Shown one piece after another: positions 13,707 to 25,686 of a DNA stretch of 37,231 bases (position 1 is the first letter of the stretch; each line of letters begins with the position of its first letter). A program made the position numbers and the translations under genes. The stretch is from positions 1-37,231 of the IMG/VR virus record IMGVR_UViG_3300011116_000293. The stretch is one strand, 5' to 3'. The stretch is from a virus. Below the pieces are notes generated by a model that saw only the letters and a program-made list of their open reading frames with translations, had not been told where the DNA came from and did no database searches.

Positions 13707-14528
13707 TTAATCACCACAAAAACAATCTATAGATTCTTCATTTGGGTCAAACATATCTTTTTGTTCTACCGAAAATTGAATCATTGACGCATAAGATGGT
13801 CGGTCTTTACGAAACACCGCACCGCTTGGCTTGGATGCCAATGCCAATGCCAATGCCTCCATTTTTGCCCACCAAATACCACGCTCTGGCTTTTCTGCAA
13901 TCAGAGATAACACTTGTGCACCGCCTTTTAAAAAACATAAATCGCAATTACCGTGATATGTCACGCCATTTATGTTTGGCAACTCAAGGTCAAAAGATTG
14001 ATTTCTCCAAAATTCACTCACAATTTCTTTTGTAACACCAGCAGCAACCAATGGAATTCTTGATTTGTCAGCAATTTTGGCGGCTCGACGTTGTTCATCA
14101 GCCCTCATACCCACCCAATCCATAGATTCATTATGTTGCCAACCCAATGACTTAAGGTATTTATGAATTGTTCGTATTTTTAGTTCTGCCGTACAAAATC
14201 TTGTCACAGGGTTTGGCAAGTATTGACGTTTACGAATAAGTGCTTCAAAAGGTTCGCCATTACGACTTGCAGTCTCAAATGTCACACGTTCAAAAGCAGG
14301 GTCTGCATCTCGGTATTCAAGCCAATGAATTTCAACATTCCATTCTTTTGCACATCTGTCAATAAAACGCAGTGTTGCCTCATCTTCCTTTCCTGTGTTG
14401 GCAAAACAAACAATAGCCTCATCGGGAAGACCATTGTTTGTTTTTAGCACTTGATACAACATATAAGCAGAAGTTCTGCCTCCGCTGAAGCTAATGCACG
14501 TTGGCTCAAGTATTTTGTATGGATTCAT
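13707..14528 (-). CDS. PAPS-reductase/DndC-like ATP-pyrophosphatase family protein
   Basis: 273 aa. The PP-loop SFSGGRTSAYML (residues 13-24) and the segment RFCTAELKIRTI (about 110-121) are hallmarks of the phosphoadenosine phosphosulfate reductase family. Cysteines in GNCDLCFLKGG (193-203) and a C-terminal CFCGD suggest a metal or Fe-S site, as in the DndC-like branch. Biochemical role in phages is unresolved; sulfur metabolism or modification chemistry are candidates. It overlaps the upstream glycosyltransferase by four bases. A 6-bp tandem repeat encodes its ALALALA stretch. Confidence 0.8.
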   Translation of the reverse strand: MNPYKILEPTCISFSGGRTSAYMLYQVLKTNNGLPDEAIVCFANTGKEDEATLRFIDRCAKEWNVEIHWLEYRDADPAFERVTFETASRNGEPFEALIRKRQYLPNPVTRFCTAELKIRTIHKYLKSLGWQHNESMDWVGMRADEQRRAAKIADKSRIPLVAAGVTKEIVSEFWRNQSFDLELPNINGVTYHGNCDLCFLKGGAQVLSLIAEKPERGIWWAKMEALALALASKPSGAVFRKDRPSYASMIQFSVEQKDMFDPNEESIDCFCGD

Positions 14529-19790: not shown

Positions 19791-20081
19791 CTATGCTGGA
19801 TGGTGAGCAAAACCTAGCCCTCCCCACTTAAGGGGCAGAGCCTTCAATGCTGGACGGAGCCGCACATACCCGACAGTCGTTCGGTATAGGGGCACTATCT
19901 TCGCCACCCCTGCCTCTGTCTCATACCTTCCCACAGTAGAGGCTATCCCCCATCCCCTGCCGTATGGGTCACCGACAGGATGGGCGGTTGACGTAGGGGC
20001 AATAAAAAAACCGTTACAACTGCCCTCGGTAGGAACCCATAGGTAAAGACCAAGGGCAAGGGCATGTGTAACGGCTTTCAT
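19791..20081 (-). CDS. Hypothetical protein downstream of an operator-containing promoter
   Basis: 96 aa. The N-terminus (MKAVTHALALGLYLWVP) is mildly hydrophobic but not a convincing signal peptide. The rest is Gly/Tyr/Val-rich (DPYGRGWGIASTVGRYETEAG). No family recognised. AGGA lies eight bases before the start. Support comes from an upstream promoter and fit between neighbours; composition is unusual, so I am only moderately sure it is translated. Confidence 0.5.
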   Translation of the reverse strand: MKAVTHALALGLYLWVPTEGSCNGFFIAPTSTAHPVGDPYGRGWGIASTVGRYETEAGVAKIVPLYRTTVGYVRLRPALKALPLKWGGLGFAHHPA

Positions 20082-22977: not shown

Positions 22978-23247
22978 CTAATTCTATTCTAGTGTGTTTA
23001 TGTAATAGGTTATCTAAGGGGTAACCTGGTCAACGATAGGGGAAGCTTGGGGGTTTACACATCTCGCCCTCCACTTAACATAATATTCCCCTACCGCTAC
23101 ACGCTAGCATTCTAGAAAAAGGGTAACGGGGTTGACTGTGCTTTGCGTGTGCTTGTCATGGCTTGCGTGACCATGCTTTTGGGGTTGAGGGTCTGAAAAG
23201 GCGTGCACCCCACTTCTCGTCCCCCCCAGAAAAAAATAGTTTTTTGG

Positions 23248-23334
23248 TATAGTGGAATTGCTGTTGGTTATCGAATGCTCCAGCAGTTGCCTTCAGGGTT
23301 GGTCAGGAGTTACTTCTTGACTAACCCTTTTTTT
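23248..23334 (+). ncRNA. Candidate small RNA: promoter, two hairpins, terminator
   Basis: TGG-TATAGT (23245-23253) is an extended -10 promoter without a clear -35. A transcript from about 23260 would form hairpin 1 (CTGTTGG with CCAGCAG, stem about 23261-23287) and then a strong intrinsic terminator ending near 23334. No start codon with a ribosome site gives a meaningful ORF. It could be a free RNA of about 75 bases or a leader attenuator for the terminase arm. Confidence 0.45.
23296..23334 (+). terminator. Intrinsic terminator before the packaging arm
   Basis: GGGTTGGTCA (23296-23305) pairs with TGACTAACCC (23318-23327), 10 pairs with one G-U, followed by seven T (23328-23334). It is the best intrinsic terminator I see in the window and lies 36 bases before the first plus-strand gene rather than after one. 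Confidence 0.8.
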
Positions 23335-23369
23335 GTCTGTAGTATGGAGTTATTGGTAGAGGGGAAGAG

Positions 23370-23594
23370 ATGATGATTACTGCGATAGAGGTTGAAGTAG
23401 GCGTACCTGCACCCAAGATGAGGGTGGTGTATGCGTACCCGTATGAGGAGATGGATGTGGGGGACAGTTTCTGTGTGCCTCTGGAGGCTAGGGCGAAGGT
23501 GTTGAATGCCAACTACAGGGCGGGTAAGAGGTTGGGGCGGGTGTTTACTGCCAAGACTGAGGGTGAGCAGGTGAGGGTGTGGAGGACAGCGTGA
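23370..23594 (+). CDS. Conserved small phage protein (EEMDVGDSFCVP type)
   Basis: 74 aa (a second ATG directly follows). Contains YPYEEMDVGDSFCVPLEARA and ends VRVWRTA. The YPFxxMxVGDSFxVP start and RVWR end are shared by many small phage proteins of unknown role. GAGGGGAAG provides the ribosome site. First gene of the plus arm; GTGA overlap with the next gene. Confidence 0.75.
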   Translation: MMITAIEVEVGVPAPKMRVVYAYPYEEMDVGDSFCVPLEARAKVLNANYRAGKRLGRVFTAKTEGEQVRVWRTA

Positions 23595-23806: not shown

Positions 23807-23942
23807 CAAGAAGCAGAAGTTGGCGTTGGTGGCAGAGTGGAAGGGTAAGTACTGTGCAGACCATGTGAAGACGCTTATCAACTGTGTGAAGAACAAGCAA
23901 GCTGCGTATGTAATTCTTGAATGGAAAGATGATGAACTTTGA
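23742..23942 (+). CDS. Small conserved protein upstream of terminase
   Basis: About 66 aa, start uncertain (ATGs at 23700, 23718 and 23742 are all inside the previous gene). The body is LKQDIWRALSCTNKKQKLAL, EWKGKYCADHVKTLINCVKN and AAYVILEW. The ADYVKTL...CVK...AAYVIxEW pattern is known to me from small phage proteins encoded next to terminase genes. Its stop is inside the start of the terminase gene. Confidence 0.6.
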   Translation: MVLRESRIQLKQDIWRALSCTNKKQKLALVAEWKGKYCADHVKTLINCVKNKQAAYVILEWKDDEL

Positions 23943-25686
23943 CCTGAAGAAGTTTTATAAGTTCTGCTCTGAACTCAAGATTGAGACTAAGGAAGAGGGT
24001 TTGAAGAAGATGGGTAACCTTCTGGGGACTCAAACCTATGTCATGCAAGAGATACAAAAAGGCTTAGATGAAGATGTTCACTTCTTTGTCATCCTCAAAG
24101 GTAGGCAACTTGGTATCACGACTATTTCGTTGGCACTTGACCTTTACTGGCAGTTCACGCACCCTGGCTGGCAAGGTACGTTGGTTGCGGATACAGAGGA
24201 AAACAGAGACATGTTTCGCTCTACTCTCGCTATGTATATGGAAGGGTTGCCCAAAGAGTACAAGATTCCGCTGGTTGCCCATAACAGAAACCAGATGGTT
24301 CTAAAAAACAGGTCAAGACTCTTCTACCAAATTGCTGGAAACAAGTCTCGTCTGGGACAAGGCAAGGCTATCACTTACCTACACGGCACAGAGACAGCAT
24401 CGTGGGGGAATGAAGAAGGCTTGGCTTCTCTGATAGCTTCTTTGGCTGAAAAGAACTCAGAGAGGCTGTACATGTTTGAGAGTACTGCCCAAGGCTTCAA
24501 CATGTTTCACGACATGTACAAGACTGCCAAGCGAGCAAGAACACAACGTGCCATCTTCTGCGGTTGGTGGAGGAATGAGTATTACTCTGTTCCCGCTGAC
24601 TCCAACATCTACAAGGTGTACTGGGATGGCAAGCTGACAGGCGAAGAGAAGGAGTGGCACAAAGACATCAAGAAGCTCTACGGCTTTGAGATTAACAGCA
24701 GACAAATGGCTTGGTGGCGTTGGAAGATGGCAGAAGGCATCAAAGACGATGCGCTTATGTACCAAGAGTTTCCACCTACGGAGGACTATGCCTTTGTGAT
24801 GACAGGCTCCTCCTTCTTCTCGCACACACGGTGCACAGAAGCCGCCAAGAAGAGCAAGACCACAGACTGCGACTACTACAGGTATGCGTTTGGTCAACTC
24901 TTCCAAGACACTGAAGTGCTCAAATCCACAGAAAGACTCGGTACTCTCAAAGTGTGGGAGGAACCTATAGACTCAGCCTACTACGTTATTGGTGCAGACC
25001 CCGCCTATGGCAGCAGTGATTGGGCAGACAGGTTTTGTATTCAGGTCTACCGCTGTTATGCAGATGGCCTAGACCAAGTAGCAGAGTTTGCAACCTCTGA
25101 ACTCAACACCTACCAGTTTGCGTGGGTGATAGCGCACTTGGCTGGCGCATACAAGAACTCTACGCTTAACCTTGAGGTTAACGGCCCAGGTCAAGCTGTC
25201 ATCAATGAACTCAGAAACTTAAAACGCTTGGCAACCTCTATGGGAGGGGCTACAGGGCGGGATTTGATGGATGTGTTGGGTAGCATGACAAACTACATCT
25301 GGAGGCGTAATGACACCCTTGGTGGCCTCTCCAACAGTATTGGCTACCTCACCACTGCAAATAGCAAAGAACGCATGTTGCAGTACATGAAAGACTATTT
25401 TGAGCGTGGCATGATGGGCATTCTCAGCATGGATACCCTAGAAGAGATGAAAGGTATCGTGCGAGAAGGTGGTTTCTTGGGCGCACCTGGTCGTGGCAAG
25501 GACGATAGAGTGATTGCCTCTGCTCTTGCTGCCGTTGCCTACGCAGAACAGATTCAACCTAGATTGATAGCCCACAAGCTCTCACGCAATGTGAGTGCAG
25601 CACAAGAGTCCTTTACCCCAGAACAAATTGCAGTCGGCAGAAATGTCAGCGACTACCTCAAACGAATAGGAATTTACGGTGCATGA
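23929..25686 (+). CDS. terL: Terminase large subunit
   Basis: 585 aa from the ATG at 23929; TTG 23917 is an alternative. The ATPase domain has a variant Walker A GRQLGITT (58-65) and a region ITYLHGTETASW (148-159) with the coupling Glu155. The RNase H-like nuclease has Asp357 in IGADPAYG, Glu416 in NLEVNGPGQ and Asp525/526 in GKDDRVIASA. It cuts concatemers and drives DNA into the prohead through the portal encoded three genes later. No small subunit is clearly recognisable; the HTH protein at 26460 is one candidate. Confidence 0.93.
   Translation: MMNFDLKKFYKFCSELKIETKEEGLKKMGNLLGTQTYVMQEIQKGLDEDVHFFVILKGRQLGITTISLALDLYWQFTHPGWQGTLVADTEENRDMFRSTLAMYMEGLPKEYKIPLVAHNRNQMVLKNRSRLFYQIAGNKSRLGQGKAITYLHGTETASWGNEEGLASLIASLAEKNSERLYMFESTAQGFNMFHDMYKTAKRARTQRAIFCGWWRNEYYSVPADSNIYKVYWDGKLTGEEKEWHKDIKKLYGFEINSRQMAWWRWKMAEGIKDDALMYQEFPPTEDYAFVMTGSSFFSHTRCTEAAKKSKTTDCDYYRYAFGQLFQDTEVLKSTERLGTLKVWEEPIDSAYYVIGADPAYGSSDWADRFCIQVYRCYADGLDQVAEFATSELNTYQFAWVIAHLAGAYKNSTLNLEVNGPGQAVINELRNLKRLATSMGGATGRDLMDVLGSMTNYIWRRNDTLGGLSNSIGYLTTANSKERMLQYMKDYFERGMMGILSMDTLEEMKGIVREGGFLGAPGRGKDDRVIASALAAVAYAEQIQPRLIAHKLSRNVSAAQESFTPEQIAVGRNVSDYLKRIGIYGA

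Follow-up and report, generated by a model that had tools for sequence, protein, structure and literature searches.

A candidate small-RNA unit whose terminator overlaps a putative late promoter in an uncultured freshwater phage

Directly upstream of the late genes of an uncultured freshwater phage, known from a 37,231-base virus record in IMG/VR that was analyzed over its full length (hereafter, the window), lies a compact region that is conserved in relatives and probably constitutes a unit for a short stable or regulatory RNA, its terminator fused to, and insulating, a late promoter (P2). Host RNA polymerase would start at an upstream promoter (P1), at about 23260, and stop at an intrinsic terminator at about 23335. 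The product would be a stable RNA of ~75 nt (23260..23335, plus strand; start placed from the -10 element, end from the T-tract) comprising a first hairpin, a GCAGUUGCC box, and the terminator hairpin. Late genes would start at P2, and the terminator would play a double role, ending the small RNA and keeping transcription from P1 off P2. The RNA itself would most likely serve trans-acting regulation or host interaction through its GCAGUUGCC region. If so, in this abundant uncultured phage group a single conserved stretch of 100 bases would both end a small RNA and start the late genes, and the overlap of terminator and P2 would represent an unusual and testable coupling of the two events.

Setting and elements of the predicted RNA

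The unit is located between leftward early genes, whose products are RecT-like, RecE-like, and sliding-clamp-like, and a rightward late block. The first gene of this block (23370..23594, plus strand) encodes 74 amino acids with a weak match to phrog_10287, and is followed by terL (23917-25686, plus strand) and by genes for the portal and major head proteins. More than 600 TerL relatives were present in IMG/VR, 80 of which were fetched and kept for comparison, with their upstream regions aligned by the 74-aa gene; these relatives are not independent of one another, so that the counts given here overstate the number of events. DNA similarity to the segment was not found in the phage collection, and the nearest deposited relatives were two genomes from Manatee Spring, with 74-76% TerL identity. 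Two relatives sit in contigs binned with betaproteobacteria and the window itself encodes an Rfam Betaproteobacteria-1 RNA (19868-19986, minus strand; RF02932, 104.3 bits, full length), which together hint weakly at a betaproteobacterial host. A long-stem, terminator-like structure occurs just upstream of that RNA. Elsewhere in the window, a phosphoadenosine phosphosulfate reductase-like gene (13707-14528, minus strand; phrog_424) is a possible auxiliary metabolic gene.

The initial annotation had placed an extended -10 element, a first hairpin, and a terminator within 23245-23334, and all three were found there. P1 is a predicted extended -10 promoter, TGG-TATAGT (TGGTATAGT; 23245..23253, plus strand), with no recognizable -35. 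Because a generic scan of the window for promoters and terminators performed no better than chance (8 promoters against 9.4 expected; 7 terminators against 5.5 expected), the case for the unit rests on conservation. Of 51 distinct relative segments, 36 had TGNTANNNT following the A-tract at no more than 45 nt, compared with 5.8 expected from dinucleotide shuffles. P1 is not universal, since it is missing from a side branch of seven relatives (L059, L060, L062, L064, L076, L160, and L161) that keep the box and the terminator. Upstream of P1, at 23200-23239, there is a conserved block consisting of GGCGTGCACCCCACTTCTCG, a C-tract, and an A-tract, which persists even in relatives devoid of P1 and the terminator and may serve for packaging or for the binding of a protein. 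Two loci (L050 and L051) carry an insertion of ~700 bases, with an apparent leftward gene, between the GGCGTGCACCCCACTTCTCG block and P2.

Hairpin 1 (23260..23287, plus strand) has eight base pairs, formed by GCTGTTGG (23260-23267) and CCAGCAGT (23280-23287) around the loop TTATCGAATGCT, and corresponds to the CTGTTGG/CCAGCAG hairpin first described. Its pairing is kept in relatives, with 98.1% of cells paired across 13 distinct sequences, and its loop is conserved as TT-N-YCGRATGCT. Just one pair was doubly changed (GC to AU, in 5 of the 13 sequences), so covariation in this hairpin is modest. Hairpin 1 was restricted to the phage family of the window, at the locus preceding the late genes; taken together with the terminator, it was 96.5% paired in ten close relatives. 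Directly 5' of the terminator lies the GCAGTTGCC box (23283..23291, plus strand), which most relatives retain.

The segment 23258-23336 folds to -32.2 kcal/mol, well below its shuffles (-17.35 ± 2.8; z = -5.3, 0/200). As the initial annotation stated, the 90 bases contain no credible ORF: the single closed ORF inside the predicted RNA has 18 codons and shows no conservation, and a coding function was rejected. Comparison of 23245-23334 with the covariance models of Rfam 15 gave no match, whether at the gathering threshold or at E-values up to 5, and ARAGORN detected no tRNA in the window, the predicted 75-nt RNA included.

Relatives have other RNAs in the slot that precedes the terminator. Locus L040 has a tRNA-Met gene there, and the same tRNA-Met sequence occupies the slot in L034 and L036, which are without a canonical TGNTANNNT; a tRNA in this slot would be transcribed from P1. 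Other relatives carry a larger, conserved hairpin, ACACGCATGGGGATTG...CAGTCTCCAGCCGTGT. The presence of stable RNAs in the slot supports a stand-alone unit, and the locus appears to behave as a cassette site for stable RNAs. The small RNA of about 75 bases originally proposed has thus gained support, at the level of sequence, from the conservation of P1, compensatory stem changes, and tRNA-Met in the slot, and stands as a prediction.

The terminator and the overlapping putative promoter P2

The terminator (23295..23334, plus strand), assigned by fold and covariation, consists of a 15-bp stem, in which AGGGTTGGTCAGGAG (23295-23309) pairs with TTCTTGACTAACCCT (23314-23328), a TTAC loop, and a T7 tract (23328-23334). 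It had been singled out as the strongest in the window and, at -22.1, its hairpin is indeed the most stable candidate on either strand. A terminator with a T-tract precedes the 74-aa gene in 57 relative loci, which together contain 35 distinct stems; 97% of these stems scored 16 or higher, versus 2% of shuffles. Nine short stems of identical geometry were 100% paired, with 5 of 7 pairs changed on both sides and 15 doubly changed cells, a level reached by 0 of 500 shuffles. Compensatory changes, part of the evidence by which the initial annotation proposed to judge the unit, are therefore present in the stems. The terminator was more conserved than P1.

P2 is a probable late-gene promoter of the sigma-70 type, with the form TTGACT-N17-TAGTAT (23317..23345, plus strand), its assignment resting on the layout seen in relatives. 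The -35 element (TTGACT, 23317-23322) falls in the loop and 3' arm of the terminator, the T-tract falls in the spacer, and the -10 element (TAGTAT) occupies 23340-23345. The same layout, with TTG in the 3' part of the terminator, a spacing of 16-18 nt, and TANNNT, was found in 47 of 57 relatives, or 29 of the 35 stems that differ in sequence, with a spacing of exactly 17 nt in 41 of the 47 loci. By comparison, a P2-like layout was observed at 1 of 113 terminators from unrelated phage contigs, a control set produced by one terminator pattern scan (Fisher p ~1e-30 against 47/57). This overlap was absent from the initial annotation, as was the recurrence of GCAGTTGCC upstream of terminators in numerous unrelated phage contigs.

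Several patterns of change among relatives bear on P2. Across 20 divergent loci, the TTG and TA of P2 were invariant while the terminator arms varied. Six loci (L023, L025, L028, L029, L041, and L581) have additional hairpins between the T-tract and the -10 of P2. In the first five of these, the hairpins added after the T-tract are accompanied by a new TTG element that brings the spacing back to 17 nt. In L011, a deletion took the terminator stem and spared the -10 of P2. Some relatives that do not have the RNA unit keep P2-like sites (e.g., L050 and L071), with TATTAT-type -10 elements retained at the P2 position in, for example, L050, L071-L073, L077-L079, and L081.

Alternative explanations and known systems

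The initial annotation had also suggested an attenuator, that is, a lambda-type arrangement in which P1 is the late promoter, a phage antitermination factor overcomes the terminator, and the short RNA is a by-product. The extended -10 promoter and the strong terminator exist, directly 5' of the late block, and the lambdoid pR'-tR' region makes a comparable RNA (StxS, PMC7873438). However, P2 begins within the terminator in 47/57 relatives, and late genes starting there would need neither antitermination nor readthrough. P2-like sites persist in branches that lack P1 or the terminator, the terminator stem has been lost in L011, and no N- or Q-like PHROG was recognized among the early proteins scanned, although an antiterminator of an undescribed family may be encoded. 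Given that P2 would make readthrough superfluous and that relatives can lack individual parts of the unit, we consider attenuation quite improbable. The terminator might instead be a pure insulator that shields P2 from upstream transcription, with P1 weak or accidental and no functional RNA. This would agree with the greater conservation of the terminator than of P1 and with the side branch that has box and terminator without P1, but P1 is six times commoner than expected, the pairing and loop of hairpin 1 are conserved, and tRNA-Met occupies the slot in three relatives, all of which make insulation by itself unlikely.

It has also been shown in vitro that, after termination, Escherichia coli RNA polymerase can diffuse on DNA and re-initiate at promoters close by (PMC6978380, PMC11347151). 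With this precedent and a promoter that overlaps the terminator itself, polymerase might release the short RNA, stay on the DNA, and restart at P2, such that P1 feeds the late promoter. Yet, according to the same reports, re-initiation still lacks an in vivo demonstration; branches without P1 also occur, and we regard such recycling as very improbable. Should the overlap be functional, it would offer a natural test of whether the recycling of RNA polymerase between a terminator and the promoter overlapping it matters in vivo.

Our preferred reading, a small-RNA unit with an insulating terminator fused to P2, has partial counterparts among known systems. Short leader RNAs upstream of late operons are already known, as in the lambdoid late leader between pR' and tR', which includes the 6S RNA of lambda and StxS of Stx phages (PMC7873438). 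Like that leader, the predicted RNA is short, has its promoter just 5' of the late operon, and ends at an intrinsic terminator. Unlike it, the window unit has a probable second promoter inside the terminator and is flanked on its upstream side by divergent early genes. No Q-like gene was recognized among the early proteins scanned in the window phage, and relatives have a tRNA or other hairpins in the slot preceding the terminator. At the level of sequence, the P2 layout and the P2-like sites kept where the unit is absent speak against a dependence of late genes on readthrough from the upstream promoter, a lambdoid hallmark. The unit also resembles the phage-encoded trans-acting sRNAs PreS, sar, and VpdS (~50-90 nt; reviewed in PMC12197685) in its predicted short non-coding RNA, which is within their length range, and in having, in its letters, its own promoter and an intrinsic terminator with a U-tract, as expected of trans-acting sRNAs. 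It differs from them in that its terminator and the probable late promoter overlap, which is unusual. Phage tRNA units provide a further parallel through the tRNA-Met of L034, L036, and L040, whereas the window RNA is not a tRNA. A limited literature search returned no paper on a promoter built into a terminator like P2, or on the GCAGTTGCC box.

Recurrence of the GCAGTTGCC box and of a hairpin module

Scanning IMG/VR for GCAGTTGCC upstream of T7 yielded 80 loci, and a genuine hairpin terminator was present at 40 of them. Of these 40, at least 8 belonged to the TerL family, and the rest showed neither TerL nor a homologue of the 74-aa protein. The reverse complement of GCAGTTGCC, scanned in the same way, gave a terminator at 5/80 loci versus 40/80 (Fisher p 4e-10, relatedness ignored). 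If the box acts at all, it would be at an RNA or strand-specific level. GCAGTTG was present upstream of 0 of 110 generic phage terminators obtained by pattern scan, a search among cultured phages for the box together with a terminator gave generic terminators only, and literature on GCAGTTGCC with terminators produced only unrelated matches.

Other roles for the box were considered and rejected. As a feature of host terminators, it showed no excess over a backward control when 74 genomes from a single candidate host family were scanned. Nor is it a repeated site: the phage has one exact copy, one-mismatch matches are near chance, and no perfect complement was found elsewhere in the phage. Its placement inside a hairpin loop was about twofold over shuffles and not general, and its distance to the T-tract, ranging from ~33 to 90 nt, does not fit a fixed-distance activator site for P2.

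In a broader reading, to which we give little credence, the late promoter would be built into the small-RNA terminator with RNA polymerase handed over from one to the other, and GCAGUUGCC would be an undescribed terminator-proximal element of many unrelated freshwater phages that ends stable-RNA units. The GCAGTTGCC box offers a means of searching for what may be a new class of 3' ends in phage RNAs.

The box often comes after tRNA-like or hairpin arrays. A hairpin module of the form ACACGCATGGGGATTG-[variable]-CAGTCCCCAGCCGTGT-TGG was found in 112 IMG/VR stretches with 65 distinct inner sequences, at loci that include L517, L508, L472, L526, L461, L134, and ~75 others. Six loci were compared with Rfam and gave no match. 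Copies of the module often stand in tandem, along with CACCAACAACCTA linkers and pieces resembling tRNA, and have the appearance of a large, structured phage RNA not described before.
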